Assembly (NCBI GenBank): GCA_023144005.1
Contig: JAGLGN010000021.1
Span: 1 to 64,000, forward strand
Direction: 5' to 3'
Length of the DNA: 64,000 nt
Origin: a bacterium
GTDB lineage: Bacteria > AUK180
The notes beneath the pieces are model-generated. The model saw nothing but the letters and a program-made list of their open reading frames with translations. It searched no databases and was not told where the DNA came from. Numbering within the stretch: position 1 is the first letter of the stretch; every line of letters starts with the position of its first letter. A program made the translations under genes and the position numbers. Shown piece by piece: positions 36,867-52,246 of the stretch.

Positions 36867-36900
36867 AACTAACCTCGAACCTCTAGCCTCTAACCTCTAT
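36867..36900 (-). repeat. AGAGGTT-type repeat at the hydrogenase 3' end
   Basis: On the gene strand this is a run of AGAGGTTAGAGG-like heptads, 11 bp after the stop codon of the hydrogenase large-subunit gene. Comparable runs follow fumarase alpha (52217-52246), malic enzyme (40108-40133) and hypE (in 16242-16328). Confidence 0.65.
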
Positions 36901-36911
36901 TTGATATTTCT

Positions 36912-38378
36912 CTAACGATCCCTTCTGAGTACCTCTATCGGAGCACCTTTATCGTCTCGGATCGTAACTATGAGCGGCATCTGGCCCGGCAGCGAATGTG
37001 TCGCGCATGCCAGACACGGGTCATACGCTCTGAACGCCATTTCGACCATGTTCAGGACACCGTCCGTGACCTTTCCGTTCTTTATGAGATTCTCCGCAGC
37101 CTTTGAAACGGACATACAGATCGCGGCAGCATTGTTCACGGTCGCGACGATGAGGTTCGTCTGCGTCAACACTCCCCTTTTGTCTGTATTATAATGATGA
37201 ATAAGCGTTCCTCTCGGAGCTTCCACAATACCCACTCCCTCTACAGGTGTATTGGTAGGGATATTCATAATATCATCTGAAGTAATGGTTTCATCCGAAG
37301 CAAGCTCGACTATCCTTTCGGCCGCATACAGAACTTCCACGAGCCGAGCCCAATGGTATGCGAGCGTGTGATGAGAAGGCTTACCACCCAGTACCTTGAA
37401 CATTCTCTCATATTGCTTCTGAGCAAGAGGAGTAGCCATTCCGTCTGAAACATTCAGCCGTGCAATGGGAGCGACCCTGAATACACCGCTGTTTTTTCCG
37501 TCAACGAAGCCCTTCCATCCGACCTTTTTAAGGAATGGGAACTTCATATAACTCCATGGTTCTACATGCTCGGCTATATGGTCACGATAGTCCTCGGGTT
37601 TGAATTTAGCGAATTCCTTGCCATCGGGATCCACGACCCTGATATCACCATCGTAGAAATTTACTTTATTGTCCTTGTCCACCATTCCCATATAATAGGT
37701 GTTGTGCTGGTAGATATGACCGGTGATGAGCTTCACATACTCATCATTTGATAAGACGATATCATCGAATATCTTGAGGGCGAACTGCGCGAATTCAACT
37801 CCATCTTTTCCAACTTGCAGCATTTCAAGGCGTTCCTCTTCGGTTATCTTCTTTGAAACACCGCCGGGAAGTCCGCAGACCGGGTGTATGACACGACCGC
37901 CGATGGTAGTTATAATATCTCTCATCTTCTTTCTGATGCCGATGACCTGCTTGCCGATATCCAATCCGACCTTATCAATGACACCGAGTATATTTCTATC
38001 ACCTGCCGGAGCATCGGGGCCCACAACGAAATCCGGGCCGCCCAGGAAGAAGAAATGCAATGTGTGATCTTCGAACATGAACGCATTATACATCAGTTCT
38101 CTGATCTTTTTCGCGGTCTCGGTGGGTTCTACCCTATAAAGGTTATCCAAGGTCTTGGTCGCTGCCATATGATGTGCTGTCGGACATACTCCACAGATCT
38201 TAGGAGTTATCCTCGGCATTTCTTCAGCCGCGCGGCCCAGGGAGAATACTTCGAATCCTCTGAGTTCAGGAACTTGGAAGTACGCCTGCTTAACATTCCC
38301 TTTATCATCAAGAAAGATCTCTATCTTTCCGTGCCCTTCAAGTCTGGTTATGGGATCAATGGATATTTTTCTTACCAC
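36912..38378 (-). CDS. mvhA: [NiFe] hydrogenase large subunit, group 3 (MvhA-like)
   Basis: Catalytic subunit that splits H2. The 488-residue precursor has the nickel ligands Cys62 and Cys65 (ITPKICGVCPTAHH) and Cys455 and Cys458 in DPCLACATH. Cleavage after His461 by the protease encoded upstream would remove a 27-residue C-terminal peptide. The sequence type is that of cytoplasmic group 3 enzymes; together with MvhG, MvhD and HdrA encoded 8-10 kb upstream it fits subgroup 3c. The start is GTG with a strong AAGGAGGT. It is the last gene after protease-hypA-hypB, so it is separated from its small subunit gene by malic enzyme, fumarate reductase and hdrBC. Confidence 0.93.
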   Translation of the reverse strand: MVRKISIDPITRLEGHGKIEIFLDDKGNVKQAYFQVPELRGFEVFSLGRAAEEMPRITPKICGVCPTAHHMAATKTLDNLYRVEPTETAKKIRELMYNAFMFEDHTLHFFFLGGPDFVVGPDAPAGDRNILGVIDKVGLDIGKQVIGIRKKMRDIITTIGGRVIHPVCGLPGGVSKKITEEERLEMLQVGKDGVEFAQFALKIFDDIVLSNDEYVKLITGHIYQHNTYYMGMVDKDNKVNFYDGDIRVVDPDGKEFAKFKPEDYRDHIAEHVEPWSYMKFPFLKKVGWKGFVDGKNSGVFRVAPIARLNVSDGMATPLAQKQYERMFKVLGGKPSHHTLAYHWARLVEVLYAAERIVELASDETITSDDIMNIPTNTPVEGVGIVEAPRGTLIHHYNTDKRGVLTQTNLIVATVNNAAAICMSVSKAAENLIKNGKVTDGVLNMVEMAFRAYDPCLACATHSLPGQMPLIVTIRDDKGAPIEVLRRDR

Positions 38379-38392
38379 GATCTACCTCCTTT

Positions 38393-39046
38393 TCAGCCAA
38401 GTTCTTGTAATAGCCAATCGGTCCATTTATCAAGACCCTCTCCTGTCTTCGTGGAGAGTTCGATGATAACGGATTTCGGATTGACTTTCTTTATATTTTC
38501 CTTCACAAGGTCGATATCGAGATCGAGTACCCCAAGAAGGTCGCATTTGTTTATCACTACTACCTGAGAAGTATTGAAAAGCAGCGGATACTTCAATGGC
38601 TTGTCCTCGCCTTCCGGCGTGCTCAGAACGGCGACATTGAAATGTGAGCCGGTGTCAAATTCGGCGGGACAGACCATATTGCCGATATTTTCTACGAAAA
38701 GCAGGTCTATTTCATTGAGGTCTATCTGATCCGCGGCCTGCCTTATCCAGGCAGCTTCCAGATGACATGCTCCACCGAAGGGCCCTGTATTTATTGAAAC
38801 GATTGGGACACCGTGTTTGGCGATCTTATCCGCATCCAGGGATGTTTCGATATCACCCTCAACAACACCAATTCTCTTCTTTCCCTTGAGGGCTTGGATC
38901 GTCTTCTCTATAAGAGTTGTTTTACCCGAACCCGGAGAGCTCATCAAATTAATGGTGAGAACCCCGTTATCACTGTAGTGCTTTCTTGAATCATCCGCGA
39001 CCTGGTCATTTGCCGCAAGCACTTTCTTCAATATTTTGATCTGCAT
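38393..39046 (-). CDS. hypB: hydrogenase nickel-incorporation GTPase HypB
   Basis: GTPase that delivers nickel to the hydrogenase large subunit with HypA. The 217-residue SIMIBI-class protein has a P-loop MSSPGSGKTTL, the metal-binding Cys-His in GACHLEAAW and NKCDLLG for guanine recognition. It lacks the N-terminal CxxCGC or His-rich nickel-storage extension found in some HypB proteins. It lies between hypA (8 bp) and mvhA (14 bp). Confidence 0.95.
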   Translation of the reverse strand: MQIKILKKVLAANDQVADDSRKHYSDNGVLTINLMSSPGSGKTTLIEKTIQALKGKKRIGVVEGDIETSLDADKIAKHGVPIVSINTGPFGGACHLEAAWIRQAADQIDLNEIDLLFVENIGNMVCPAEFDTGSHFNVAVLSTPEGEDKPLKYPLLFNTSQVVVINKCDLLGVLDLDIDLVKENIKKVNPKSVIIELSTKTGEGLDKWTDWLLQELG

Positions 39047-39054
39047 GATGCCTC

Positions 39055-39399
39055 CTAATCTACTTCAACGGAATCTACATAGAGCTCTCTTCCTGAAACT
39101 ATTTTGTATTCCTGTGATTTACAGGAAGGACAGATCAGGAAGAACTCCGATTCGATATTATATTGTTTTTTGCATTCTTGACATTCGGCGAGAAACGGGA
39201 TGACATCGATGTTCAGGCTGCATGCACTGAATTCCGAATCCTCCTTTATCGCCTCAAAAGAGAATTGCAGGGCTTCTGAAACCACACCCGAGAATTCTCC
39301 AACCTTCAGATTGATCTCGAGGATCGTCTCATATTCCTTTTCCTTGAGATTCTCAAGGACGATCTGCATTACATTCTGTACTATGCCGAGTTCATGCAT
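39055..39399 (-). CDS. hypA: hydrogenase nickel metallochaperone HypA
   Basis: A 114-residue nickel chaperone. The start at 39397-39399 gives MHELGIV, placing the nickel ligand at His2 as the family requires; the slightly longer frame would begin with TTG and bury it. The zinc site is the pair CQEC and CPSC near the C-terminal third. The start overlaps the protease stop by 8 bp, with GGAG about 10 bp upstream. It works with HypB encoded next. Confidence 0.94.
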   Translation of the reverse strand: MHELGIVQNVMQIVLENLKEKEYETILEINLKVGEFSGVVSEALQFSFEAIKEDSEFSACSLNIDVIPFLAECQECKKQYNIESEFFLICPSCKSQEYKIVSGRELYVDSVEVD

Positions 39400-39856
39400 G
39401 AAATTCAATCTCCATTATTTTCTTCGCATTACTTTTAATACTGTCTTCTACCTCGGAAGTGCATTCATCACTGAAAGTAACATTATCCGTTATCTCAATT
39501 GCGTAAATGGTTATCTTCTCCGGCATTTTTCCAAGATATCTCTTTCCAAGTTCGAGCGCCGTAGGAAAATTCAGATTGTGAAATGTTGAAATATTCACCG
39601 CCTTGGATAATTCCTCCATCGGTATCTCGAGCAATGTACCCGGGGGATGTTCTCCGGTCTTCACCGAATCGATGATGATCACACGATCATAGCCCTCCAT
39701 GCAATCTACCAGTTCCATCCCCGAGGTACTCGCCACCTCTGTATCGACATCAGGATACAGCTCTTTTATTTCTTCTGTGATCCTTATGCCTACAGCATCG
39801 TCGGATAGTATCGGATTTCCGATCCCGAGAATAAGCGTGGAGCCCTTAGCGTTCAT
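39392..39856 (-). CDS. hydrogenase maturation endopeptidase
   Basis: A 154-residue protease of the HyaD/HybD/HoxW family that cleaves the C-terminal peptide of the hydrogenase large subunit after nickel insertion. The N-terminal LILGIGNPILSDDAVGIR is the family signature, with Asp where HybD uses a glutamate nickel ligand; a second acidic residue is in IIDSVKTGE and a histidine in TFHNLNFP. Its probable substrate is the large subunit encoded three genes downstream. It is the first gene after a 274-bp repeat-filled gap following malic enzyme, so it may start a new transcript. Confidence 0.9.
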   Translation of the reverse strand: MNAKGSTLILGIGNPILSDDAVGIRITEEIKELYPDVDTEVASTSGMELVDCMEGYDRVIIIDSVKTGEHPPGTLLEIPMEELSKAVNISTFHNLNFPTALELGKRYLGKMPEKITIYAIEITDNVTFSDECTSEVEDSIKSNAKKIMEIEFHA

Positions 39857-39870
39857 AGTGCTCCCCGCAA

Positions 39871-39915
39871 AGGTTCCAAGTTCGCAGGTTCCAAGTTCAC
39901 AGGTTCCAAGTTCAC
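39871..39915 (+). repeat. three tandem 15-bp repeats
   Basis: AGGTTCCAAGTTC followed by GC or AC is repeated three times without gaps (39871-39885, 39886-39900, 39901-39915), followed by a partial unit. It sits about 15 bp upstream of the protease gene, close enough to affect its expression. The unit resembles GGTTCCAAGTT in the repeat at 59184-59240. Confidence 0.8.
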
Positions 39916-39987
39916 AAGTTGAGAAATATGTTTCGAGATAAGAATTTCTTGGTGTTCAATCTTATAATTCTTCATTCTTCACTTCTC

Positions 39988-40133
39988 AACTAACCTCTAA
40001 CCTCCAGCCTCTAACCTCTATCTTCTCGTTCTTCAATTCCTAGTTAACCTATTATTCACTATCAATTCCTTTTATTCCCATCTCCAATTCTTCATCCTTC
40101 ATTTCCAAACTAACCTCTAACCTCCAACCTCTA
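39988..40133 (-). repeat. polypurine tract with AGAGGTT repeats
   Basis: On the gene strand the DNA is almost entirely A and G, with two AGAGGTTAGAGG-type clusters at 39988-40020 and 40108-40133 and GAAGAATGAAG-type units between. The downstream cluster includes the stop codon of malic enzyme. No promoter or terminator could be distinguished inside the tract. Confidence 0.65.
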
Positions 40134-41483
40134 TTCTTCTGTGTACTCCGGGATTATCTTTTCTCTCATTGCCACATCAACAAGCTTTCTGGCTCTTTCT
40201 ATTTTTTCTTTCGCGCTCTTTCTAAGCTCATCTTCCGTCAGTGTCCGCCTTGCTGTACCGTCCTTCATCGCCTTCATTCCGCATGCGACGGCTACTTCAA
40301 TAGCGGCTTCGACATCATCCATTGTCGGAAGGATATAATCCTCGCTGATGCCTTTTTTCACAGCGCTGTTCGCAAGTGATTCCGCTGCAGCAACACACAT
40401 ACTATCTGTAATTGTATTGGCCCATACATCAAGAACACCACGGAATATCGCGGGGAAGCCGACTGAGTTATTCACTTGATTCGGGAAATCGCTTCTGCCT
40501 GTGGATACTACTCTCGCGCCTGCTTCTTTCGCTTCCCACGGCCATATTTCAGGTATCGGATTGGCACATGCGAATACAATAGAATCATCCGCCATTGAGC
40601 TTACCCATTCCGGCTTTATCGTGCCCGGCCCCGGCTTTGAAAGTCCTATTACCACATCCGCGCCCTTCATGGCTTCCGCAATTCCGCCTGAAAGCTGAGC
40701 TTCATTCGTCGTCAAACATCTGTCCCACTTTTCCTTTGAATAGTCTGTATTCAGATCCTCTCTGCTTTTGTTCAATATTCCTTTGCTGTCGACCATGACG
40801 CATTTCTTGGGGTCCACGCCCGCAAGGAAAATGATCCTTGAAATACAGATATTGGCGGCGCCGGCGCCGATCAACGCTATTTTGACATCACCGATCTTCT
40901 TCCCAACGACCTTGAGGGCATTGATAAGTCCGGCAAGCGTTACCGTAGCGGTCCCCTGCTGATCATCGTGCCATACAGGAATATTCATCTCATTTCTGCA
41001 TCTTTCGAGTATCTCAAAACACTTGGGCTGTGAGAAATCCTCAAGGTTGATCCCGCCGAAGGTCGGCTCAAGGGCTTTTACGATCTCAACTATCTTATCA
41101 GGGTCATGTTCATTGATGCATATCGGGAAAGCATCGACACCGCCCAGATACTTAAATAACAACGCCTTGCCTTCCATTACGGGCAGGCCGGCTTCCGGGC
41201 CGATATCGCCGAGTCCGAGAACACGCGATCCGTCACTGACAACAGCGACAAAATTGCCCTTATTCGTATGTTCGTAAACTTTCTCAGGATTCTCATGAAT
41301 ATCACGGCACGGCGCGGCAACGCCGGGTGTGTACCATATAGCGAAATCGTTGAAGTCCCTTACACAAGATTTTAATGTGACCTCAACTTTTCCTTTGAAA
41401 AAGGGATGCATCTTCATCGCATCCTTAGCGGGCTTTTTTGCTTTTGCAAGAAGCTTTTCAACATCTACTTTTTTATCGTTCAT
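40131..41483 (-). CDS. malic enzyme (malate dehydrogenase, decarboxylating)
   Basis: Interconverts malate and pyruvate plus CO2 with NAD(P). The 450-residue protein matches the short bacterial malic enzymes (as in MaeB without the phosphotransacetylase tail). Visible are FAIWYTPGVAAPCRDI with the catalytic tyrosine, the metal and substrate segment WHDDQQGTATVTLAG, the Rossmann motif IGAGAANICI and FACANPIPEIWP. It is 22 bp downstream of frdA in the same run as fumarase, so it connects the C4 acids to pyruvate and anabolism. Its stop codon lies within an AGAGGTT-type repeat. Confidence 0.93.
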   Translation of the reverse strand: MNDKKVDVEKLLAKAKKPAKDAMKMHPFFKGKVEVTLKSCVRDFNDFAIWYTPGVAAPCRDIHENPEKVYEHTNKGNFVAVVSDGSRVLGLGDIGPEAGLPVMEGKALLFKYLGGVDAFPICINEHDPDKIVEIVKALEPTFGGINLEDFSQPKCFEILERCRNEMNIPVWHDDQQGTATVTLAGLINALKVVGKKIGDVKIALIGAGAANICISRIIFLAGVDPKKCVMVDSKGILNKSREDLNTDYSKEKWDRCLTTNEAQLSGGIAEAMKGADVVIGLSKPGPGTIKPEWVSSMADDSIVFACANPIPEIWPWEAKEAGARVVSTGRSDFPNQVNNSVGFPAIFRGVLDVWANTITDSMCVAAAESLANSAVKKGISEDYILPTMDDVEAAIEVAVACGMKAMKDGTARRTLTEDELRKSAKEKIERARKLVDVAMREKIIPEYTEE

Positions 41484-41505
41484 TATTATCTCCTATCAAA
41501 CCATT

Positions 41506-43182
41506 TCAGTTAAAAATATCCAGCATTCTCTCGAGAGCTTCTTTACCTCTGTAATCGGGAAGTACCATCGGGGCCTTTCTATTTGTCTTGATCTTCGCGT
41601 CCTTTAAGAGCTTTTCATATCTTTCAAGGTGTTTGAATGAGAGTTTCCCCGCTGTCTTGTTCTTTTTAAGGTATTTCGCCGCTGTACGGCCTGAAATACG
41701 GCCGAACACTATACAATCAAGGGTAGAGTTACCCATAAGCCTGTTTTTTCCGTGAACGCCGCCTGAGACCTCTCCGGCAACGAACAAGCCGTCAATGCTG
41801 CTATTTGCAAGAGGATCCGTCTCGATACCACCGTTTTGATAATGGAGTGTAGGGAAAACCAGCACAGGATCTTTTACCATATCCACGCCGAATCTTTCGA
41901 ACATTCTGACCATGCCGGGAAATGAATCTTTAATGGTTCCCTTGCCGTTGATAACGTCGATCAACGGTGTGTCAAGCCAGACACCCTGCATTCCTGTCGG
42001 GGTCGGGACGCCTTTATTCTTTACATAACATTCCTTGATAAGAGCGGAAGCCTCGACATCTCTTGGTTCCAGCGGATAAACAAATGCCTCACCGTCAACA
42101 TTTACCGGCTGAGCTCCCATTGACCTCAGTTTCTCTGTAAGAAGAAGTCCGATGATCTGCTGAGGGTATGCGGCTCCGGTCGGATGGTACTGAACTGTAT
42201 CCAGATCTCTCAATTTCGCGCCGGCTCTGTATGCGAGCACAACGCCGTCATTTGTAGCACCATAGTGATTTGTGGTCGGAAAGCCCCTGACATGAAGCCG
42301 GCCGAATCCGCCGGTCGCCATAATAGTGGCTTTTGCTCTGATAACCTTATAATCCCCTGTTTCCATCTCCCATATCACAGCTCCGGTCACTTTTTTCGTA
42401 GTCGGGTCAGTAAGAAGCTCGATCACAGGACAATATTCCAGCGTAGGGATCTCCCTGTTGCGGAATTCATCCCTCAATACTCTTACTTCCTCCATTCCGG
42501 TATAATCCTTACATGCATGCATCCTCTTTCTGGAGGTTCCGCCGCCGGCAAGACGGACGAAATCACCGTCTTCTGTACGGTCAAAAAGTACACCGAGGTC
42601 GACCAGCCACTTCAATGAGTGGGGAGCTTCTTCAATGAGAGCTTTCAGAACTTCAGGTTTATTCGTAAAATGTCCGCCGCCGAAGGCATCGAGATAATGG
42701 ATCGGAGGTGAATCTTCGGGCGCATCAGCGACCTGAGTGCCTCCCTGGGCCATGATCGAATTGGAATCGCCGTGGCGTAATTTGTTCACCAGCAGTATCT
42801 TATCTGTTTTCACTCCGCCGTCATTGGCTAATAGAGCGGCCGCCGTGCCGGCAAGTCCACCGCCGATAATAAGAAGGTCAACATCGTGATCGATCTTTTT
42901 CAGATTTATTTTTTTTGGATCTACCAGCGGATGCGCTTCGATAAGGTCAGCTACTTCATTCGGGGCGATGTTTCCCTTGTTCAGACCAAGGCCGATCTTC
43001 CTTTTTCCACCGGGCCGGAAATCGGGATGGCATTGATTCAGAACCTCTTCCCTTTCTTTCAGCGACATGCCTTCAAGTACCTTGCCTGCCCTCTTTTTTC
43101 TGGTGGCTTCCACTTTCTTGATAGAGTTCCTCATATCCTGAGGGTATCCCCCGATAAGTTTATATTCGGTTTTCGTGCTCAT
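41506..43182 (-). CDS. frdA: fumarate reductase flavoprotein subunit, soluble type
   Basis: A 558-residue flavoprotein of the fumarate reductase/succinate dehydrogenase family. An N-terminal extension of about 95 residues precedes the FAD motif IIGGGLAG (105-112). Active-site residues are kept: YHPTG, the arginine of PRDV, the histidine of TLHYQNGGIETD and the arginine of NRLMGNS. The histidine that binds FAD covalently in quinone-linked enzymes (SHT.xAQGG) is Asn141 here (SNSIMAQGG), so the flavin should be non-covalent, as in soluble fumarate reductases. Overlaps frdB by an ATGA junction. No membrane anchor subunit is encoded, and hdrB/hdrC are adjacent, pointing to a cytoplasmic enzyme fed by Hdr modules. 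L-aspartate oxidase is unlikely given the FrdB partner. Confidence 0.9.
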   Translation of the reverse strand: MSTKTEYKLIGGYPQDMRNSIKKVEATRKKRAGKVLEGMSLKEREEVLNQCHPDFRPGGKRKIGLGLNKGNIAPNEVADLIEAHPLVDPKKINLKKIDHDVDLLIIGGGLAGTAAALLANDGGVKTDKILLVNKLRHGDSNSIMAQGGTQVADAPEDSPPIHYLDAFGGGHFTNKPEVLKALIEEAPHSLKWLVDLGVLFDRTEDGDFVRLAGGGTSRKRMHACKDYTGMEEVRVLRDEFRNREIPTLEYCPVIELLTDPTTKKVTGAVIWEMETGDYKVIRAKATIMATGGFGRLHVRGFPTTNHYGATNDGVVLAYRAGAKLRDLDTVQYHPTGAAYPQQIIGLLLTEKLRSMGAQPVNVDGEAFVYPLEPRDVEASALIKECYVKNKGVPTPTGMQGVWLDTPLIDVINGKGTIKDSFPGMVRMFERFGVDMVKDPVLVFPTLHYQNGGIETDPLANSSIDGLFVAGEVSGGVHGKNRLMGNSTLDCIVFGRISGRTAAKYLKKNKTAGKLSFKHLERYEKLLKDAKIKTNRKAPMVLPDYRGKEALERMLDIFN

Positions 43183-43958
43183 TTCTTACCCCCTTTGAGA
43201 AATTTGGCTTTAGTAGCCTGTTGTTTCTTATAGGCTTCCTTGGATTGCTTCATATTCAGACCCAGAAGATTCTTGAAGTCCTTTTTGTATTCGCCTTTCT
43301 CTGTGGCTTTAACAACTTTTTTCAATGCTTTGTTCTCAGGGAAACCATTTCTGCCGTACATAACCCTGCCGAATTGCGAGACATTGTACTGAACGATCTC
43401 AGCCGGGCATCTCAGAGCGCACATTCCGCATTGTATACAGTCAAAAGACAGCTCTGCCACCCTCTGAAAATCCCCTCTTAATGCAGCTTGGACATAATCC
43501 ATTACTTCCAGGTCCTGGGGACATGCTTTTGTACAGGTATTACAGGAGACGCATCTCGCAATTTCAGGAAAATATTTCAGGAATGAATTTCCTTCATACG
43601 GTTCCTTGGTAACACTGTAAATCGGTTTTTCAGCCGGTGAGAACGGAAGTTGAACCAGATACATCCCGCATTCAACCCTTGTCTGACAAGCCATTGCGGT
43701 CTGAAGTTTGTATTCCCCCTTCATCCTGTAGATGGTCGAACACGCGCCGCAGAAGCCTGCACGGCACCCGCAGGAATGAATAAACCGGTATCCCGCATAC
43801 TCCATCGCCTGCATTATCGTCAGATCGGCCGGAACCTCATAAACCTTTCCCATGATGTAGATCTTTGCCCAGTGTTTGACATCCTTGGGATCAATCCCCT
43901 TTGTAACGGACTGATTTGCATGGGCGATCTTTTCCATGATGTTCTTTTCTTTCGCCAT
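43179..43958 (-). CDS. frdB: fumarate reductase iron-sulfur subunit
   Basis: A 259-residue electron-transfer subunit. The N-terminal plant-ferredoxin-like domain has C65, C70, C73 and C91 for a [2Fe-2S] cluster. The C-terminal domain has two complete CxxCxxCxxxCP sets (C136-C146 and C174-C184), so two [4Fe-4S] clusters are expected, whereas quinone-linked SdhB proteins carry one [4Fe-4S] and one [3Fe-4S]. This organisation resembles the N-terminal part of TfrB of the methanogen thiol:fumarate reductase. The C-terminus is rich in Lys with no membrane helix. It is 12 bp downstream of hdrB. Confidence 0.92.
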   Translation of the reverse strand: MAKEKNIMEKIAHANQSVTKGIDPKDVKHWAKIYIMGKVYEVPADLTIMQAMEYAGYRFIHSCGCRAGFCGACSTIYRMKGEYKLQTAMACQTRVECGMYLVQLPFSPAEKPIYSVTKEPYEGNSFLKYFPEIARCVSCNTCTKACPQDLEVMDYVQAALRGDFQRVAELSFDCIQCGMCALRCPAEIVQYNVSQFGRVMYGRNGFPENKALKKVVKATEKGEYKKDFKNLLGLNMKQSKEAYKKQQATKAKFLKGGKK

Positions 43959-43970
43959 GTGGTATCTCCT

Positions 43971-44861
43971 TTATATCTTCTTTTTCTTTAAAAGCGGCCT
44001 GGGATCGGTGAAGTTAAGGTCAAAATTGTTAACATCCTTCTTCAAACCGAAAGCAAGGGCCGTCAGCTGTGTAAAATAGAAAACCGGCATCCGTTCAAAA
44101 TCCGGATGTTCCAATTTTATTTCTTTTTGCCTGTCATCAAGGTTGAATGCGCAAAGCGGACAGCTTGTTACAAGAGCTTCAGCGCCTCGTTTGCGGGCAC
44201 TTTCAATTATCTCATAACCAAGCCGCACAACGGTTTTGGGATTACGGACTGTCTGATATGACCCGCAACACATTGATTTCTTCGGACTGTCGATGACATC
44301 GACCCCGATGGCGTTCAAAAGGTCTTCCATGATCGTAGGAACTTCCGGATCATCCAATGCGACCTCCTTCGGCCTCAAAAGCGTACAGCCGTAATATGGA
44401 GACACTTTCAATTTACCGAGGCTCTTTTTCACCTTGGATTTGATCTCGTCAAATCCCATTTCCCTGATGAGCTCCAATAGATGAACGACCGTTACACCGC
44501 CTTTGTAATCCTCTTCCCTGTCCATGAAATTATTTATCTTGTCAAGGTCATCAGGCCGCTCCTGCATCACATTGCTTACGCTTTTCAAGGTATTATAACA
44601 CATCGAACAAAGGGTCAGAAGACGGTAATCGTCTACTTCGCCTCTTTCATTCATTTCCTGAACACGGATAAAGTTACGCACCGATGCTATATGATGTATC
44701 AGATCATCTTGAGTGAGTGATGTAACCGTTCCGCAGCAATTCCACCGGTCAATCTCCAATAGCTTCAAGCCAAGGACCTTCGCGGTGGCGATAGCGGAAT
44801 CTTCAAAATTCTTTCCCGTGGTCTTCAAAGTGCAGCCCGGGTAATATGGTATCTTCTTCAT
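43971..44861 (-). CDS. hdrB: heterodisulfide reductase subunit B-like protein
   Basis: A 296-residue protein with two full CCG domains: Cys10, Cys42-Cys43, Cys85 and Cys88, then Cys159, Cys198-Cys199, Cys234 and Cys237. In HdrB of methanogens these ligate two non-cubane [4Fe-4S] clusters that cleave the heterodisulfide; in SdhE and in the C-terminal part of TfrB a similar domain is tied to fumarate reductase or succinate dehydrogenase. Here it lies between hdrC and frdB, so it could link HdrC/HdrA to FrdAB or reduce a disulfide of its own. Spacing to both neighbours is under 15 bp. Confidence 0.9.
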   Translation of the reverse strand: MKKIPYYPGCTLKTTGKNFEDSAIATAKVLGLKLLEIDRWNCCGTVTSLTQDDLIHHIASVRNFIRVQEMNERGEVDDYRLLTLCSMCYNTLKSVSNVMQERPDDLDKINNFMDREEDYKGGVTVVHLLELIREMGFDEIKSKVKKSLGKLKVSPYYGCTLLRPKEVALDDPEVPTIMEDLLNAIGVDVIDSPKKSMCCGSYQTVRNPKTVVRLGYEIIESARKRGAEALVTSCPLCAFNLDDRQKEIKLEHPDFERMPVFYFTQLTALAFGLKKDVNNFDLNFTDPRPLLKKKKI

Positions 44862-44864
44862 ATG

Positions 44865-45272
44865 CTATCCTGTAAACTTTCTAAATGCGCTAACAATAGC
44901 TATTTGAGGCAATCTGCGCATCTCTTTCTCAGAGATATCACGGATATCCATGTAATCTATCGCTTTGCGCAGCGTCATCTGCCGCAGAGATTCGCATATC
45001 TTCGAGGGATCCAGTCCTCTTGGACATCTCACGGTGCAGGTGAAACAGCTTGCGCAGAGCCAAATTGCTTCAAGGTCCAGAACCTCTACTTGACCGAGTT
45101 GGACCATCCTGTTTATCTGAGAAGGTGTAATGTCCATTTCTTCGGCCATGGGACAGCATCCGGAACATGTCCCGCACTGGTCGCAAAGAGTTACGACCTG
45201 GCCGCTCAGCTCATTTACTTTTTCTAAAAAAGCATTGCCTTCGTCCGTGATCTCAATTATTTTTTTACTCAT
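44865..45272 (-). CDS. hdrC: heterodisulfide reductase subunit C-like ferredoxin
   Basis: A 135-residue iron-sulfur protein with two [4Fe-4S] motifs, C30-C33-C36-C40 and C73-C76-C79-C83, and the helical C-terminal part typical of HdrC. In methanogen Hdr, HdrC passes electrons from HdrA to HdrB. It is followed by hdrB after 3 bp and preceded by mvhG. No membrane helices are present, unlike HdrE/DsrM-associated versions. Confidence 0.9.
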   Translation of the reverse strand: MSKKIIEITDEGNAFLEKVNELSGQVVTLCDQCGTCSGCCPMAEEMDITPSQINRMVQLGQVEVLDLEAIWLCASCFTCTVRCPRGLDPSKICESLRQMTLRKAIDYMDIRDISEKEMRRLPQIAIVSAFRKFTG

Positions 45273-45282
45273 ATCTTACACC

Positions 45283-46263
45283 TCAATCCGATTTCTTTCT
45301 TTTCAGAAGCGAAGATGGAAGACTGTACATATAAAAGAGCCCGCCCGGATCGACGATGCCGTCCAGAAGTATGTCCACTTCCTCTTCAGTAACGGCTTCT
45401 TCGTTCTCCATCCCAAGTATTGAAGCAATACTGGAAAGGATCTTCGCGCCGTGATCAACTACATTTCCAACAGGGCCGAAACATCCTCTACAGGGCATAT
45501 TTGCATTGATGCATCTTTCTCCGCAGCCGGAGCGTGTCGCCGGCCCGAGGCATATCAGTCCTTGTGCCAGAAAGCAGAGATCCGGATCTATCTTTATCTC
45601 ATGCGGGCGCTTGATCTCTTTCATCGTAAGTTTCTCCGGCTTTGTCTTATTCAGCCGGCAGGAATCACAAAGAGACTTCTCGGGCGCAAGCACCGAACCC
45701 TTCGGGGGAAGTTCCCCTTTCAGTATTGCGTTTATCGCCCCCATGATAAGGTCGGGTGGCGGAGCGCATCCCGGAAGATAATAATCCACATCAATAACCT
45801 GATCCAGTGTTTTTACCGTATTGTGAAATCTGGGAAGTGTTACTTCACCGGATTTGACCTTTGTTCTGGTCTGCGGTATCACGCCTTCCTTATTGTCAAC
45901 GGTATCCAGATCACGATAAAGTGTGTTCAAGATCTCCTTGCTGTTGGAAAAGTTAGCCAGGCCCGGAATTCCGCCGATATGGGCACATGCTCCGAAGGCG
46001 ACAACGAGTCCGGACTTCTTTCTGAGGAGTTCCACCATCTCGACCTGTTCGTCTGTACGGACGGCACCGTTGATAAAGCTGACCGCGATAGCACCGTCAT
46101 CCATTGCCTGAACATCTTTTTTCTTAAAATCCATGGCGACCGGCCAGAATACGATATCTACGGCATCCACCACTGTGAGGATATCTTCGGCAAGGTCGAC
46201 TACTGCTTCTTCGCATCCGCCGCAGGAAGCACACCAATAAAATGCGACTTTTGGTTTTCCCAT
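45283..46263 (-). CDS. mvhG: [NiFe] hydrogenase small subunit (MvhG-like)
   Basis: The electron-transferring small subunit. The 326-residue protein has the proximal-cluster cysteines in WCASCGGCEE (first at Cys11), GACAHIGG and LPGCAPPP, and further cysteines (CDSCRLNK and the CGERC/CRGC region) for the medial and distal clusters. There is no Tat signal, so it is cytoplasmic. Two ATGs are available; the second, at 46261-46263, has AGGAG at the normal distance and is preferred. It lies between mvhD and hdrC. The partner large subunit is encoded at 36912-38378. Confidence 0.93.
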   Translation of the reverse strand: MGKPKVAFYWCASCGGCEEAVVDLAEDILTVVDAVDIVFWPVAMDFKKKDVQAMDDGAIAVSFINGAVRTDEQVEMVELLRKKSGLVVAFGACAHIGGIPGLANFSNSKEILNTLYRDLDTVDNKEGVIPQTRTKVKSGEVTLPRFHNTVKTLDQVIDVDYYLPGCAPPPDLIMGAINAILKGELPPKGSVLAPEKSLCDSCRLNKTKPEKLTMKEIKRPHEIKIDPDLCFLAQGLICLGPATRSGCGERCINANMPCRGCFGPVGNVVDHGAKILSSIASILGMENEEAVTEEEVDILLDGIVDPGGLFYMYSLPSSLLKRKKSD

Positions 46264-46272
46264 CGTCATCTC

Positions 46273-46698
46273 CTACTCGACTTCCGTCTCAGCATAAGAT
46301 AGATCAAGCGGTCCGAGCTTTTCAATATCGTCTATCATCTTATTCACGACCTTACCGAATTTTTCGCCCTCATTGGAGGAAACCCAGTCAAGTCTCAATC
46401 TATCATCCTCAATACCGAATTGTGCAAGCATTCTTTTGAGAAGTTTGACCTTCCTCAATGTCTTATAATTGCCGTTCTTATAATGACAGTCCCCGGGGTG
46501 GCAGCCAAGTACCAGAACTCCCCAAGCGCCTTTCTTGAACGCTTCTATTATCAGTTCGGGATCTATTCTGGAGGAGCACATGGTCCTGATTATCCTGAAA
46601 TGAGGTTTTATCTGTACCTTCGCGACTCCGGCATTATCAGCTCCTGCGTATGAGCACCAATTGCAGCAGAAAACGATTATTTTCGGATCTTTTTTCAT
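46273..46698 (-). CDS. mvhD: F420-non-reducing hydrogenase iron-sulfur subunit (MvhD-like)
   Basis: A 141-residue [2Fe-2S] protein that connects the hydrogenase to HdrA in methanogens. Conserved cysteines are at 11-12, 15, 41, 66 and 71 (FCCNWCSYAGAD, TMCSSR, GCHPGDC). The frame is open for 31 codons upstream, but the ATG at 46696-46698 overlaps the hdrA stop in an ATGA junction and gives the standard N-terminus. MvhD next to HdrA is the signature of an Hdr-Mvh complex. Confidence 0.94.
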   Translation of the reverse strand: MKKDPKIIVFCCNWCSYAGADNAGVAKVQIKPHFRIIRTMCSSRIDPELIIEAFKKGAWGVLVLGCHPGDCHYKNGNYKTLRKVKLLKRMLAQFGIEDDRLRLDWVSSNEGEKFGKVVNKMIDDIEKLGPLDLSYAETEVE

Positions 46699-48635
46699 AA
46701 TGCCGCCTCCAGCATTGCTCTGAGCTGTGTGATATCGAACCATTTTTGTTGTGATGCGCCTGTAGGACATGCGCCAGAACATGATCCGCAACCCTTGCAG
46801 AGTATCTCATTCACTACAGCGAGACGGGTTCCGTCGGACTGTTCTTCAGAAGTTATCGCGTCATACGGGCATATTCCGACACAGATACCGCAGCCGGCGC
46901 AGATATCTTCATCTACCCATGCAGTTATAGGTTCGGCTTCATATTCCCCCTGGTTCATCAGGCGGATCGCCCTTGCGGCGGCAGCGCTTGCCTGCGCGAC
47001 AGCATCCGGAATATCTTTCGGGCCCTGAACGGTACCGGCGAGGAATACTCCCTCAATGAGAGTATCAACAGGCCTGAATTTGGGATGGGCTTCCTGAAGG
47101 AAACCGTCAGAACTCTTTGATATCCTCAGAATGTCCCTGATCGTCTCTGTCCCCTTATTGGGTTCAAGTCCGACCGAAAGAACGACCGTGTCAAATTCCG
47201 ATTCGATAAATGATCTGGAAAGCGTATCTTCGACCTTGAGTTTGAGTTTCTTTGTATCAGGATTCTCTTCGATCTCGGCAACCCGGCCTCTTATGTATTT
47301 AACACCGCTTTTCTGCGCCCTTTTATAATACTCCTCAAAGCCCTTGCCATAAGTTCTCATATCGGTATAGAAGATACTGATATCCTTCTTCGGATCCGAC
47401 CTTTTCATCAATTGAGCGAGTTTTGTCGCATACATGCAGCAGACCCTGGAACAGTATTCCCTGTTGATCTGCTCATCTCTGGAGCCCACGCATTGAATGA
47501 GAGCGATCTTCTTGCCGACCTCTGCGAGTTTCTTGCCTTCCGCCTCACAACCGATGATCCTTTCCATTTCAAGAGCATTGTAAACATTCTCGAACTTGCC
47601 GAAACCGAACATGGGCTTCTTCTTGGCGTCAAAGATGTCAAATCCTGTAGCGATGATTATCGTATCAACAGTGAACTTGACCTTCTCGGGATAGAGATCA
47701 TAATTGATGGCATCCGCTTCACAAGCATCCCGGCATTTGGAACATGCCAGCGGGAAAAGCCCCAGACAATGATCTGTATCAAGAACATATGAATGCGGCA
47801 CCGCGATATCTGAAGTTATATAAATTGCCTTTCTCAGAGATAGCCCTTCATTGTACTCATCAGGCACATCAATGGGACATACAGGCACACAATCACCACA
47901 GGCGGTACATTTTACCGGGTCCACATAAGTCGGCCGTTTATTGACGGTCACTTCGTAATTTCCAAGATAACCGGTGATCGATTCCACCTGTGAATATGTC
48001 ATCAGTTCGATATTCTTATTGGCGGGCACATCTGACATCTTAGGAGAAAGAATACACGCCGAACAATCCTCGGTGGGGAATGTCTTGGAAAGCTGAGCCA
48101 TATGGCCGCCTATGGAAGGTTCTTTTTCGACCAGATAAACCTTGAATCCGGCATCGCCCAAGTCGAGGGATGCCTGAATGCCAGCGATTCCCGCTCCAAC
48201 TACAAGCACTCTTTTTCCAATGGGCATTTTCTTAGAGTCAAGAGGCGTATCCAGTCTTACCTTGGAAATAGCGATCTTTGTAAGATCGATCGCCTTATCG
48301 GTAGCCTCTTTGGGAAAGTTATAATGCGCCCATGAGCATTGCTCTCTGATATTAGCCATCTCGAGAACATACGGGTTAAGTCCAGCGGTTTCCATAACCC
48401 TCATAAAGGTCAGGCCTTGGAATTGCGGCGAACATGCGGAAACAACGACCTTATCAAGTTTGTATTCTTTAATATCGTTGAGCATAAGGGTCTGTCCGTC
48501 ATTGGAACAGAGATGGGAATTATCCTTGACAAGAACCACATCCCCTTCCAATTTCGCCGCCTCTACAACTTTATTAATGTCAACAACTTCAGATATATTA
48601 CCTCCGCAGTGACATACATATACTCCGATCCTCAC
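46695..48635 (-). CDS. hdrA: heterodisulfide reductase subunit A (electron-bifurcating flavoprotein)
   Basis: A 646-residue flavoprotein, the size of HdrA in methanogens. It has the N-terminal domain with VYVCHCGGN (6-13), the FAD-binding GAGIAG (147-152), C191/C194 in the inserted cluster region, a ferredoxin motif at C243-C253 and two C-terminal [4Fe-4S] motifs (CAGCGICVGICP and CKGCGSCSGACP). HdrA is the site of flavin-based bifurcation in Hdr-Mvh. The start is GTG within a GTGA overlap with the korC stop, so hdrA is translationally coupled to the KOR genes. The next gene, mvhD, overlaps its end. Confidence 0.94.
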   Translation of the reverse strand: MRIGVYVCHCGGNISEVVDINKVVEAAKLEGDVVLVKDNSHLCSNDGQTLMLNDIKEYKLDKVVVSACSPQFQGLTFMRVMETAGLNPYVLEMANIREQCSWAHYNFPKEATDKAIDLTKIAISKVRLDTPLDSKKMPIGKRVLVVGAGIAGIQASLDLGDAGFKVYLVEKEPSIGGHMAQLSKTFPTEDCSACILSPKMSDVPANKNIELMTYSQVESITGYLGNYEVTVNKRPTYVDPVKCTACGDCVPVCPIDVPDEYNEGLSLRKAIYITSDIAVPHSYVLDTDHCLGLFPLACSKCRDACEADAINYDLYPEKVKFTVDTIIIATGFDIFDAKKKPMFGFGKFENVYNALEMERIIGCEAEGKKLAEVGKKIALIQCVGSRDEQINREYCSRVCCMYATKLAQLMKRSDPKKDISIFYTDMRTYGKGFEEYYKRAQKSGVKYIRGRVAEIEENPDTKKLKLKVEDTLSRSFIESEFDTVVLSVGLEPNKGTETIRDILRISKSSDGFLQEAHPKFRPVDTLIEGVFLAGTVQGPKDIPDAVAQASAAAARAIRLMNQGEYEAEPITAWVDEDICAGCGICVGICPYDAITSEEQSDGTRLAVVNEILCKGCGSCSGACPTGASQQKWFDITQLRAMLEAAL

Positions 48636-49195
48636 TTTTTACCTCCACTTTTTCTTCTCTTTGAAGGCTTGTAATTGAACCCTACCTCAAAGGCCTTGAG
48701 ATTCAGGTCTATGAATTTAGCAGGGACTGATTCTTTGATCGCTCTTAACATAGACTCGCGGCTGGCAAGCTTTGTTTGGGCTATGACAAAGCCCACCATA
48801 ACTATATTTGCTACAATTCTCTTTCCAAGTTCCTCCGCAAGTCGCGTGGCGGGGATCGCCAATGCATTATACTTGGAATGATCCTGTACAACTGAAACAA
48901 GGTCATTATCATACAAAAGAGTCCCCTTGTTCTTCAGATCCGGCAAGAATTTATCGTAACCGGCCTGTGAAAGGGCAACAAGGATATCAGTTGTATCGAC
49001 AAGAGGATAGTTGATCGCCTTTTTATCTATGACAAGCTGAGAACTGCAGGCACCGCCGCGCGCTTCCGGCCCGTATGCCTGTGTCATAGATGCCTGTTTT
49101 CCGTCATATATGGCTGTCGCTTTACCGACGATATATGCGGAAAGGATCACACCCTGTCCTCCGTAACCAGAAAATTTTACTCTTAATTCACTCAT
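48632..49195 (-). CDS. korC: 2-oxoglutarate:ferredoxin oxidoreductase gamma subunit
   Basis: A 187-residue KorC/PorG-type subunit with the N-terminal SGYGGQGVILSAYIVGKA and EARGGACSSQ segments. It completes the KOR complex with KorB and the KorD-KorA fusion encoded just upstream, order A-B-C. Stop codon overlaps the hdrA GTG start. The exact 2-oxoacid cannot be read from this subunit; the gene order with fumarase and fumarate reductase favours 2-oxoglutarate. Confidence 0.92.
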   Translation of the reverse strand: MSELRVKFSGYGGQGVILSAYIVGKATAIYDGKQASMTQAYGPEARGGACSSQLVIDKKAINYPLVDTTDILVALSQAGYDKFLPDLKNKGTLLYDNDLVSVVQDHSKYNALAIPATRLAEELGKRIVANIVMVGFVIAQTKLASRESMLRAIKESVPAKFIDLNLKAFEVGFNYKPSKRRKSGGKK

Positions 49196-49204
49196 CCCTC
49201 ACTC

Positions 49205-50092
49205 CTATTCCTGTGAAAGGGATTTTTCATAGTCCCTGTGCTTTTTGACTTCTCCGTGAATTCCGGTCTGAACATTTTCCCAGAAACTCGGTTTTGGCTT
49301 ATTCACGAAAACACCGCAGACGATGGGATTTTCAAGATCCATTGGAATATCGTTGGGGTTCGCGCTGTGATCAATAACAGATCTCTTGCCGAAATGGTCC
49401 AGAAGATCAAGACCGGAGCCCTTTTTGTTCTTTCTCGCGAATACCGTAGGACATGGCGAGACGATCTCAATGAATGAGAACCCCTTATTATTGACCGCTT
49501 CCACGATAGAATCCGTCATCCTTCTGATATGAAGAGAGGTCCATCTGGCAACATATGTCGCACCGCTGCTGGTTACAAGGCTCACAAGATTAAACGGTGG
49601 CTCGTAATTCTTGAACGGTGCCGTGCTGCTGTATGCCTTTAAAGGAGTTGTGGGAGCTGTCTGTCCGCCTGTCATACCGTAGATAAAGTTATTGACACAG
49701 ATAACAGTAAGATCAATATTTCTCCTTGCCGCATGGATCAGATGATTACCGCCTATTGCGAATAAGTCACCATCACCGGATATTACAACCGTGGTCAGGT
49801 CTCTATTAGCCAATTTTATCCCGGTAGCAAAAGGAATTGCCCTTCCGTGAGTAGTATGATAGGAATCCACCTTCACATAACCGGCGACCCTTGCGGTACA
49901 GCCGATGCCCGATACAACGGCAACCTTATCAAAATCTATGCCCGCTTTCTTAATAGCTTCGGTAAATGCCGTAAGATTGGTTCCAAGGCCGCAGCCGGGG
50001 CACCATATATGCGGCATTCTATCCATTCTAAGAAAATCTTCCATCGGATGCTGACTTGAATTTTTTGGAGCCTTGCTCTTATTTTTTGCCAT
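49205..50092 (-). CDS. korB: 2-oxoglutarate:ferredoxin oxidoreductase beta subunit
   Basis: The thiamine diphosphate-binding subunit. In the 295-residue protein, WCPGCGLG (Cys31, Cys34) and GIGCTAR supply [4Fe-4S] ligands and GDGD (106-109) with NNFIYGMTGGQ forms the TPP-Mg site. The ATG at 50090-50092 has GAGGAGG at six to seven bases; a TTG two codons upstream is less likely. It overlaps the end of korA by 14 bp. With ferredoxin reduced enough, the enzyme can carboxylate succinyl-CoA to 2-oxoglutarate. Confidence 0.93.
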   Translation of the reverse strand: MAKNKSKAPKNSSQHPMEDFLRMDRMPHIWCPGCGLGTNLTAFTEAIKKAGIDFDKVAVVSGIGCTARVAGYVKVDSYHTTHGRAIPFATGIKLANRDLTTVVISGDGDLFAIGGNHLIHAARRNIDLTVICVNNFIYGMTGGQTAPTTPLKAYSSTAPFKNYEPPFNLVSLVTSSGATYVARWTSLHIRRMTDSIVEAVNNKGFSFIEIVSPCPTVFARKNKKGSGLDLLDHFGKRSVIDHSANPNDIPMDLENPIVCGVFVNKPKPSFWENVQTGIHGEVKKHRDYEKSLSQE

Positions 50093-51551
50093 GTGCAACC
50101 TCCTCGATAGCTTTCACAATATCATTAAAATCGTGTATGCCGCCACCCGCGTGTGTAACTCCCTTCGTCCTTGCATCCGGGAACGCGCACCTTTCCACTT
50201 CAAGCGCGATCTGCCCGAGATTCAATTCAGGGACAACAAATCCGGCGCATTTACGCGAGAGTTCTTTAATTCTCTGCTCAGGGAACGGCCATACCGTGAT
50301 CAAGCGCATATAGCCGACCTTTATTCCTTTCTTCTTTGCCTTTTCTATGGCAGGAATTACGGTCCTTGCCGTAATTCCGTAACAAACGACTATCACATCT
50401 GCACCCTCGATATCGATCTCCTCGATCATCATGATATCGTCGATGTTCTTGGTGATCTTTTCGACAAGACGGGTAACCACACTTTTCTGACATTGCTCGG
50501 TCATATCAGGATATCCCCTCTCATCATGGGTCAGGCCCGTAGTGTGATAACGATATCCGTCTCCCGCTTTCGCAAAGTCAGGTATCATACTCTTGCCAAT
50601 TTCATATGGAAGGTACTTATCGGTGGATTTATTTGTGTATTTCCTGTCAAATATTTCGATCTCTTCTACAGGAGGTATCACGACTTTCTCCGTCATATGG
50701 CCGACTATGGCATCCGTCATTATAAATACGGGCAGCCGGTATTTCTCCGCCAGATTAAAAGCTCTGATCGTGAGGTCGAATATTTCCTGCGGTGATTTCG
50801 GGCATAATGATATAGAGCCGTAATCCCCGTGTGAACCCCATTTCGCCTGCATCATATCGCTCTGGCCCCAGGAGGTCGGAAGTCCGGTCGAGGGAGAACC
50901 CCTTTGAACATTTACAACCACACAGGGGGCTTCCATCATCATGCCGAGGCCGATATTTTCGGTCATAAGCGAGATACCGGGGCCGGATGTTGCCGTAAAG
51001 GACTTCATGCCGGCGAATGACGCGCCGATTATGCTGGCCATTGAAGCTATCTCATCTTCGAATTGAATAAATACACCGTCCAGCATAGGCAGCCGATAGG
51101 CCATCCTCTCAGCGATCTCGCTCGCCGGTGTGATCGGATATCCGCCGAAGAAACGGCAGCCGGCGGCGATGGCGCCTTCCGCGCATGCGATATCGCCCTG
51201 CATGAAAAATTCACCTTTCATTGTGCTTTTTACAATTGGCAGATTCTTGTTCCTGTTCGCGTAAACCTTTTTTACTTCTGGCTTTACTTCTTCTACTTCC
51301 TCTTCCGTGGTGATGTAGATAGCGAAATCAGGACATATCCGTTCGCAAAGGCCGCAAAAGGTACAATTCTCTTCATTGATCACTTCGGGCGGATGATACC
51401 CTTTCTCATTGAACTGAGTGGAAATTCCCAGTACATCCCGTGGACAGTGTTCAACGCAGAAATCACATCCTTTACACCTGTCTTCAAGGATAATGATCTT
51501 GCCTTTTATCCTTTTCGTGCCGGATCCTGCGGGTTTAGCATGGCTTGCCAT
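50079..51551 (-). CDS. korA: 2-oxoglutarate:ferredoxin oxidoreductase, delta-alpha fusion
   Basis: A 490-residue fusion. Residues 20-78 are a two-[4Fe-4S] ferredoxin (C26-C36 and C63-C73) equal to KorD, and the rest from about 110 is KorA with EGAIAAGCRFFGGYPITP (GYPITP at 137-142) and SGPGISLMTENIG. KorD and KorA are often separate genes; here the fusion secures the ferredoxin next to the catalytic core. It is 54 bp downstream of fumarase beta and has a strong AAAGGAGAG site. Electrons enter or leave through ferredoxin. Confidence 0.94.
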   Translation of the reverse strand: MASHAKPAGSGTKRIKGKIIILEDRCKGCDFCVEHCPRDVLGISTQFNEKGYHPPEVINEENCTFCGLCERICPDFAIYITTEEEVEEVKPEVKKVYANRNKNLPIVKSTMKGEFFMQGDIACAEGAIAAGCRFFGGYPITPASEIAERMAYRLPMLDGVFIQFEDEIASMASIIGASFAGMKSFTATSGPGISLMTENIGLGMMMEAPCVVVNVQRGSPSTGLPTSWGQSDMMQAKWGSHGDYGSISLCPKSPQEIFDLTIRAFNLAEKYRLPVFIMTDAIVGHMTEKVVIPPVEEIEIFDRKYTNKSTDKYLPYEIGKSMIPDFAKAGDGYRYHTTGLTHDERGYPDMTEQCQKSVVTRLVEKITKNIDDIMMIEEIDIEGADVIVVCYGITARTVIPAIEKAKKKGIKVGYMRLITVWPFPEQRIKELSRKCAGFVVPELNLGQIALEVERCAFPDARTKGVTHAGGGIHDFNDIVKAIEEVAHGKK

Positions 51552-51605: not shown

Positions 51606-52163
51606 TCATTCTTCATTATATTTTTTCATGCCTTCTTCATAAAGGTCGCTTCCAAATGTATCATTTGCAACGATGCAGGGGAAATCCACGACCTCAAGTC
51701 TTCTAACGGCTTCCGATTTCAGGTCCTCATATGCGATTATCTCGGCTTTTTTGATCGTTTTCGCGATCAGTGCGGCTGCGCCGCCGACCGCGGCAAGATA
51801 AACCGCAGTATTCTTCACCATTGAATCAAGAACCTCTTTAGACCGATTCCCCTTTCCGATAGTGGCTTTCAGGCCGATATCCAGAAGTGCCGGGGTGTAA
51901 GGGTCCATTCGGTAACTCGTGGTGGGCCCTGCCGAACCGATAGCATATCCGGGTTTAGCGGGTGCCGGGCCGACATAATAGATCACCGCGCCGTTTATAT
52001 CGAACGGGAGATCCTTTCCTTCTTTAACCAATTGTACAAGCCGTTTATGCGCGGCATCACGGGCGGTATAAATTATTCCGGTGAGCAGAACCTTATCTCC
52101 GATCTTCAACTTCTTAAGGTCTTCGACTGCCAAGGGTGTGTTGAGTTTATATACTTCAGCCAT
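51606..52163 (-). CDS. fumarate hydratase class I, beta subunit
   Basis: A 185-residue protein matching the C-terminal (beta) part of class I fumarase or tartrate dehydratase. The segments VYYVGPAPAKPGYAIGSAGPTTSYRMD and KGNRS are characteristic (first one read across about 64-90). The alpha subunit with the Fe-S cysteines is encoded 102 bp upstream. It hydrates fumarate or dehydrates malate and feeds the fumarate reductase; tartrate dehydratase is an alternative but the operon argues for fumarase. Confidence 0.92.
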   Translation of the reverse strand: MAEVYKLNTPLAVEDLKKLKIGDKVLLTGIIYTARDAAHKRLVQLVKEGKDLPFDINGAVIYYVGPAPAKPGYAIGSAGPTTSYRMDPYTPALLDIGLKATIGKGNRSKEVLDSMVKNTAVYLAAVGGAAALIAKTIKKAEIIAYEDLKSEAVRRLEVVDFPCIVANDTFGSDLYEEGMKKYNEE

Positions 52164-52216: not shown

Positions 52217-52246
52217 CTAGCCTCTAACCTCGAACCTCTAACCTCT
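52217..52246 (-). repeat. AGAGGTT-type repeat between fumarase genes
   Basis: On the gene strand a run of AGAGGTTCGAGGTTAGAGG units starts 19 bp after the fumarase alpha stop and lies within the 102-bp gap to the beta subunit gene. It is inside a probable operon, so it would be transcribed. Confidence 0.65.

Follow-up and report, generated by a model that had tools for sequence, protein, structure and literature searches.

The nearest described counterparts of the gene cluster reported here are the HdrABC-MvhADG complex of methanogens (PDB 5odc and 8rvv) and a few bacterial clusters in which Hdr genes stand among those for fumarate reduction. For Pseudoclostridium thermosuccinogenes, a passage of PMC7282089 that refers to a 2019 preprint (Koendjbiharie and van Kranenburg) mentions a proposed bifurcating Flx-Hdr fumarate reductase; the operon combines fumarase, an Hdr bifurcation complex and fumarate reductase, and the same passage assumes the link between fumarate and ferredoxin reduction. 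In the Cloacimonadota, a single cluster of Ca. Celaenobacter combines Tfr, 2-oxoglutarate:ferredoxin oxidoreductase, fumarase, succinyl-CoA synthetase, Mvh and Hdr, and the relevant section of PMC8542988 reads it as an H2-driven reverse tricarboxylic acid (TCA) cycle; that section cites the heterodisulfide of coenzymes M and B (CoM-S-S-CoB) as the Hdr acceptor and does not propose direct fumarate reduction by Hdr. In the reductive TCA clusters of a tubeworm symbiont and Thioflavicoccus, flxABCD-hdrABC, korABCD and tfrAB are mixed, and a direct electron-shuttling complex has been suggested (PMC6315080, PMC11636981). With such precedents in the literature, the idea of an Hdr-linked fumarate reductase is not new. 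Here, we compare with these systems a cluster from a bacterium of the lineage AUK180, located in a 64,000-nucleotide stretch (positions 1 to 64,000 of contig JAGLGN010000021.1, assembly GCA_023144005.1; hereafter the window). What is new is the breadth of the family, the swapping of electron donors, the evidence from conserved residues and the pairings of HdrB with FrdB and of KorC with HdrA.

All genes of the cluster lie on the minus strand, and together they probably encode a soluble HdrABC-MvhADG-FrdAB enzyme, an H2:fumarate/ferredoxin reductase that would feed the adjoining 2-oxoacid:ferredoxin oxidoreductase (KOR). As in the methanogen complex, a full-length HdrA and proteins of the HdrB, HdrC, MvhD, MvhG and MvhA types are present. 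HdrA (46695-48635), a FAD and polyferredoxin subunit and the putative bifurcation site, matches 8rvv_A over its full length (723.8 bits) and the HdrA2 model with 829 bits, below its cut-off; it is thus a full-length homologue of the bifurcating HdrA of methanogens. MvhD (46273-46698; PF02662 FlpD, E=3e-53), whose frame is open from 46791 with an ATG at 46698, would provide the [2Fe-2S] link between the hydrogenase and HdrA. MvhG (45283-46269; PF01058) is the hydrogenase small subunit, with VhuG as its top NCBIfam model (196 bits, below cut-off), and MvhA (36912-38378; PF00374) is a VhuA-like [NiFe] hydrogenase large subunit of the group 3c type (VhuA top, 429 bits, below cut-off), whose translation shows the CxxC pairs KICGVC and DPCLAC. 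HdrC (44865-45272), with two [4Fe-4S] clusters, was assigned from domain and NCBIfam matches and the family alignment, and HdrB (43971-44861; PF02754) from its two CCG domains, with ten Cys for two noncubane [4Fe-4S] clusters. FrdB (43179-43958, 259 aa) carries Fer2 and Fer4 domains for a [2Fe-2S] and two 4-Cys clusters, and FrdA (41506-43182; PF00890, E=3e-65) is a fumarate reductase flavoprotein.

These genes form part of a longer run in the order fumarase alpha, fumarase beta, korA, korB, korC, hdrA, mvhD, mvhG, hdrC, hdrB, frdB, frdA and malic enzyme, followed after a 274-bp gap by hycI, hypA, hypB and mvhA. Overlaps of 4 bp join korC to hdrA, hdrA to mvhD and frdB to frdA, and the remaining spacers from mvhD through malic enzyme measure 3-22 bp. 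An earlier note on this DNA had described the hdrA-mvhD-mvhG-hdrC-hdrB-frdB-frdA run, with gaps or overlaps of at most about 22 bp and a hydrogenase large subunit a few genes later. Its genes and coordinates are confirmed, mvhA lying at 38378-36912 behind the three maturation genes; the upstream section, with the fumarase genes (53111-51606) and korABC (51551-48632), was absent from it.

In the mechanism that we propose, MvhA would oxidise H2, and MvhG and MvhD would pass the electrons to the FAD of HdrA. A high-potential branch would then run through HdrC, the noncubane clusters of HdrB and FrdB to the noncovalent FAD of FrdA, where fumarate would be reduced to succinate, and a low-potential branch would lead from HdrA to reduced ferredoxin. 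The adjoining KOR could spend this ferredoxin in carboxylating succinyl-CoA to 2-oxoglutarate and, with the malic enzyme and fumarase of the operon, the outcome would be the reductive half of a TCA cycle, driven by H2. We infer the physical complex, the bifurcation and the direction in the cell, as well as a stoichiometry of about 2 H2 + fumarate + oxidised ferredoxin to succinate + reduced ferredoxin. A soluble, Hdr-linked fumarate reductase is the best reading of the cluster; its donor is likely to be H2 in this genome, though not throughout the family.

The locus differs from each of its counterparts. Compared with the methanogen complex, frdBA directly follow hdrB, KOR stands beside hdrA and ComA was not found. 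The P. thermosuccinogenes proposal, as given in the cited passage, is alike in operon content, fumarase, Hdr and Frd sharing one operon in both, whereas the input there is NADH (Flx) and here H2 (Mvh), with KOR in the operon. The symbiont and Thioflavicoccus clusters belong to Gammaproteobacteria and have an NADH-type input; Hdr lies among Kor and Tfr in both. For HdrB, the top NCBIfam score is the SdhE model of the 8-methylmenaquinol:fumarate reductase SdhABE, yet the scores for all three curated models stay below their cut-offs (SdhA 185.7 against 1100 bits, SdhB 18.3 on HdrC against 600, SdhE 162.7 against 500), and the genes accompanying HdrB here are those of HdrA, HdrC and a soluble hydrogenase. 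A different interpretation has been given to an SdhA gene that stands next to HdrA2B2C2 and GcvH in Culexarchaeia (PMC9723716).

To follow the cluster among relatives, named genomes were scanned with FrdB, which gave 80 loci (best segment 49-76% identical); with six further search stretches, adjacencies were counted over 86 loci. Most relatives are metagenome bins, and individual taxon labels may be wrong. They span WOR-3/Stahlbacteria, Aminicenantes, Aerophobetes, Bipolaricaulota/Acetothermia, Cloacimonadota, Eisenbacteria, Fermentibacteria, Coatesbacteria, Armatimonadota, Eremiobacterota, Chitinivibrionales, Phycisphaerae, Bathyarchaeota, Thermoplasmatota, Methanomassiliicoccales, Wukongarchaeum and others, and the metagenome-assembled genomes CSMAG_2929 and SRR6284161_bin.61 are among the relatives of the window organism. 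The conserved core, found in ~15 bacterial and archaeal groups, consists of HdrA, HdrC, HdrB, FrdB, FrdA and usually KOR. FrdB is immediately followed by FrdA in 73 of 77 loci and immediately preceded by HdrB in 44 of the 82 testable ones, and in 27 loci KorC immediately precedes an HdrA. Where at least 6 kb of upstream sequence was available (54 loci), HdrA was present in 44, HdrB in 44, HdrC in 43, MvhD or an HdrA-MvhD fusion in 42 and KOR in 33. Since the HdrB-FrdB, FrdB-FrdA and KorC-HdrA adjacencies recur across bacterial and archaeal phyla, the order is far beyond chance; it is real, conserved and unlikely to be a coincidence. The gene order that the earlier note had proposed to look for thus stands for HdrA, HdrC, HdrB, FrdB and FrdA, while the hydrogenase falls outside the conserved core and KOR belongs to the module. 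Genes for succinyl-CoA synthetase beta (L061:12938-14092, L109, L115) and GTP-dependent phosphoenolpyruvate carboxykinase (L081:4667-6571, L067, L069, L119) also lie beside the core, the family being shown for one representative of each; both neighbours fit a reductive TCA branch.

The cofactor and active sites are intact in the family alignments, in agreement with the cluster motifs that had been noticed in the window alone. All 12 Fe-S cysteines of FrdB are invariant in 85 sequences, and its third cluster has four Cys against three in the usual [3Fe-4S] site. The eight Cys of HdrC are invariant in 58 sequences, and the Fe-S cysteines of HdrA are conserved across the family. In HdrB, nine of the ten Cys ligands are conserved at 100% and Cys10 at 98% (64 sequences), all ten positions being Cys also in the solved structures 9sfi_C and 7bkb_B. 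FrdA keeps H232, T244, E245, R248, R287 and H355 (E. coli numbering) in 69 of 69 sequences and R390 in 68, with one gap, behind a conserved N-terminal extension of ~95 aa. At the position of the covalent-FAD His, 68 sequences have Asn, again with one gap. In complex II and E. coli Frd mutants, noncovalent FAD favours fumarate reduction over succinate oxidation, so this Asn suggests that fumarate reduction is favoured here. An identity of FrdA as L-aspartate oxidase was rejected, a separate NadB-like gene being present at G000:C13:209083 of the window genome.

While the core is constant, the input part is exchangeable between Mvh hydrogenase, NADH-linked Flx-like proteins and an HdrA-MvhD fusion. 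MvhG/MvhA occur in 17 loci, the window included. In 14 (e.g. L126, L091) there is a DHODB-type protein that binds NAD, mostly accompanied by a Fer4_22 protein in the manner of FlxAB, and HdrA is fused to MvhD in 16 open reading frames, two of which are the same gene of G002. No natural HdrB–FrdB fusion was seen in the loci, where the only fusions are HdrA–MvhD. Donor states on the FrdA tree require at least 11 changes, on a quick tree with many loci unlabelled. In the window's own phylum, NiFe hydrogenases were found in only three of seven genomes (G000, G001, G004). The hydrogenase as an obligatory part was rejected, since no NiFe hydrogenase was matched in G002, G003, G005 or G006, all of which keep the HdrB ortholog. 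The annotated genes of the cluster in the window include no FlxA/B-type NADH-oxidising subunit. Two more NiFe hydrogenase large-subunit matches occur elsewhere in the window genome (G000:C26:903-2075 and 12646-12852). Five loci have a FAD protein of the glycolate/lactate-oxidase type near their Hdr-Frd genes (L119:11628-13076, L073, L110, L112, L115), and the lactate racemase LarA is encoded in L131 (5278-6582), in a genome without NiFe hydrogenase; these proteins are a possible further electron input.

Textbook E0' values of -414 mV for H2, +33 mV for fumarate and -450 to -500 mV for ferredoxin were used to calculate the energetics. The fumarate value is also given in PMC5861303. For 2 H2 + fumarate + oxidised ferredoxin, the calculated ΔG is -79 to -70 kJ/mol at 1 bar H2 and -22 to -13 kJ/mol at 1 Pa, equilibrium being reached at ~0.01-0.08 Pa with equal succinate and fumarate. 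By this calculation the fumarate/succinate couple, as previously suggested, is positive enough to pay for ferredoxin reduction, still at ~1 Pa H2; with CoM-S-S-CoB as the acceptor instead, ΔG would be near or above zero already at 10 Pa. The window genome encodes Rnf and SucC. A Sdh_cyt (PF01127) membrane anchor was not found in it, FrdC/FrdD-type anchors not having been searched for. If the proposed reaction is true, fumarate would be another high-potential acceptor for Hdr-based bifurcation that needs no membrane, quinone or CoM/CoB. This would explain fumarate reduction in many uncultured anaerobes without a membrane fumarate reductase, as well as where the reduced ferredoxin for their reductive TCA reactions comes from when H2 is low. 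Surveys that assign CoM-S-S-CoB to Hdr-Mvh in such organisms may then name the wrong acceptor, for example that of WOR-3, which treats Hdr-Mvh and Frd separately (PMC12542636).

Several points weigh against this picture. Just over half of the testable loci have HdrB and FrdB directly adjacent (44/82, as above); in Aminicenantes, Cloacimonadota and Aerophobetes, the two share a cluster without being adjacent. As hdrB and frdB share a reading frame, the read-through chain was modelled with AlphaFold, with an HdrC–HdrB chain as control: its predicted template modelling score (pTM) was 0.59 for an HdrB length fraction of 0.53, and the control, at 0.69 for 0.68, gave no clear signal either; scores this close to the share of HdrB alone do not discriminate. 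FrdA has HYQN at residues 447-450 where E. coli FrdA has HYTM, each position being at least 95% conserved in the family, and its substrate or specificity could differ slightly. The 274-bp gap with short tandem repeats before hycI makes it possible that the hydrogenase large subunit and maturation genes form a transcript of their own; a consensus promoter and terminator scan came out near the shuffled expectation. Finally, co-transcription is no proof of a complex, and no biochemical test of any such cluster was found in the open-licence literature.

A bolder form of the Hdr-linked fumarate reductase, which we consider possible but doubtful, is a single bifurcating supercomplex, driven by H2, for both reductive steps of a half TCA cycle. 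In it, HdrA would pass the low-potential electrons directly to the adjoining KOR, whereas those of high potential would go from HdrB to FrdAB. CO2 fixation would thereby be paid for by fumarate reduction, and modules for H2, NADH or other inputs would plug into the core in many bacterial and archaeal phyla. This would parallel the Hdr-formylmethanofuran dehydrogenase complexes of methanogens. KorA (50079-51551; PF01855, PF17147, Fer4; NF006412 559.7 bits, above cut-off) carries its own ferredoxin domain, an N-terminal 2x[4Fe-4S] one, which bears on such a direct transfer. The other subunits are KorB (49205-50098; PF02775), whose top NCBIfam model is the 2-oxoglutarate ferredoxin oxidoreductase beta subunit, below cut-off, and the gamma subunit KorC (48632-49195; PF01558).

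A disulfide relay would leave the net reaction unchanged and differ in the coupling alone: HdrB would reduce a disulfide, either small or bound to a protein (CoM/CoB-like, DsrC-like or lipoyl), whose dithiol form FrdAB would separately oxidise with fumarate, as in the methanogen thiol:fumarate reductase TfrAB. We regard this as unlikely, even though TfrA is the top NCBIfam match of FrdA (292.8 bits, below cut-off) and CoM-S-S-CoB was assumed for a similar cluster in the cited section of PMC8542988. The methanogen TfrB unites an FrdB-like and an HdrB-like part; the present cluster has two proteins instead, FrdB and HdrB, the latter encoded with a full Hdr complex, and FrdB lacks the HdrB-like half of the 488-position TfrB model, leaving a lone HdrB to serve both enzymes. 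The expectation that no coenzyme M/B system is present agrees with the absence of ComA (PF02679, CoM synthesis) from the genome, other CoM routes and CoB synthesis not having been searched. In two Aerophobetes loci, the genes of a lipoate protein ligase and of a GcvH-like protein directly precede HdrC-HdrB-HdrA-FrdB-FrdA (L051:5136-6622 and L052:4878-5324; the GcvH family is shown in L052 and the ligase in L051, and the open reading frame pairs cluster together). They favour such a relay, hinting at a lipoyl disulfide carrier, but lipoyl genes were seen in these two loci only.

That the cluster encodes a plain H2:fumarate oxidoreductase complex, with HdrA as an electron wire only, is rather improbable in our view. 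Electron transfer from H2 to fumarate alone yields -86 kJ/mol at 1 bar, and coupling would be unneeded; however, HdrA is full-length with all its cluster sites retained, and a ferredoxin-using carboxylase adjoins hdrA in the 27 loci mentioned above.

Very improbable is a shared operon of separate enzymes, in which the acceptor of HdrABC-Mvh would be an unknown one and FrdAB would draw on a different donor, for instance ferredoxin or NADH. In its favour, FrdBA has neither HdrA nor HdrB nearby in nine of the 54 loci that extend at least 6 kb upstream. Against it, FrdB-type HdrB co-occurs with FrdB even when unlinked. Among nine genomes with a FrdBA locus without HdrB nearby, seven encode a close HdrB elsewhere, six of them near-complete (53-56% identity) and the seventh (G065) partial, covering residues 105-295 with 52% identity and an in-frame stop; G060 has no HdrB ortholog and G066 a weak match only. 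FrdB-type HdrB scores 280-448 bits, compared with at most 146 for nearly all other HdrB copies. In a phylum of four genomes, FrdB and HdrB occur together in three and are both missing from one. The window genome has a single HdrB, and the ortholog is present in all seven genomes of its phylum. G001, of the same genus, holds two sets, an HdrA-MvhD-MvhG-HdrC-HdrB set that is 97-98% identical and a fused HdrA-MvhD-HdrC-HdrB set; frdBA are missing from this assembly. Both sets (L144 on G001:C163 and L145 on G001:C109) lie on contigs ending within ~40 bp of the expected frdB start. A true loss of FrdBA was not accepted, as these ends just before frdB fit an assembly break, presumably caused by near-identical frdBA copies.

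The weakest proposal, that the complex runs backwards and co-oxidises succinate and reduced ferredoxin to H2 in the manner of syntrophs (confurcation), is barely credible: high succinate would shift the equilibrium, reached only at the ~0.01-0.08 Pa H2 given above, further in its favour, but the covalent-FAD His is lacking in every FrdA relative.

The remaining genes of the cluster were assigned from domain and NCBIfam matches. Fumarate hydratase alpha (52266-53111; PF05681, E=1e-118) scores 424.6 bits with NF004885, above cut-off, and the beta subunit (51606-52163; PF05683, E=3e-59) is above the cut-off of NF005310. Malic enzyme (40131-41483) matches PF00390 and PF03949. The maturation genes encode a HycI-type hydrogenase maturation protease (39392-39856; PF01750, TIGR00072 above cut-off), the nickel chaperone HypA (39055-39408; PF01155) and HypB (38393-39046; TIGR00073 above cut-off). 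Intergenic gaps of the cluster hold tandem repeats of the 7-bp unit CTAACCT (36869-36899, 39990-40020, 40110-40133 and 52217-52246), the repeat finder reporting none inside genes, and a 15-bp tandem repeat of 3.3 copies lies just upstream of hycI (39871-39920). Adjoining the cluster is a 4308-aa open frame (22707-35633) with many repeated domains, whose N-terminus resembles a lipase-type hydrolase.

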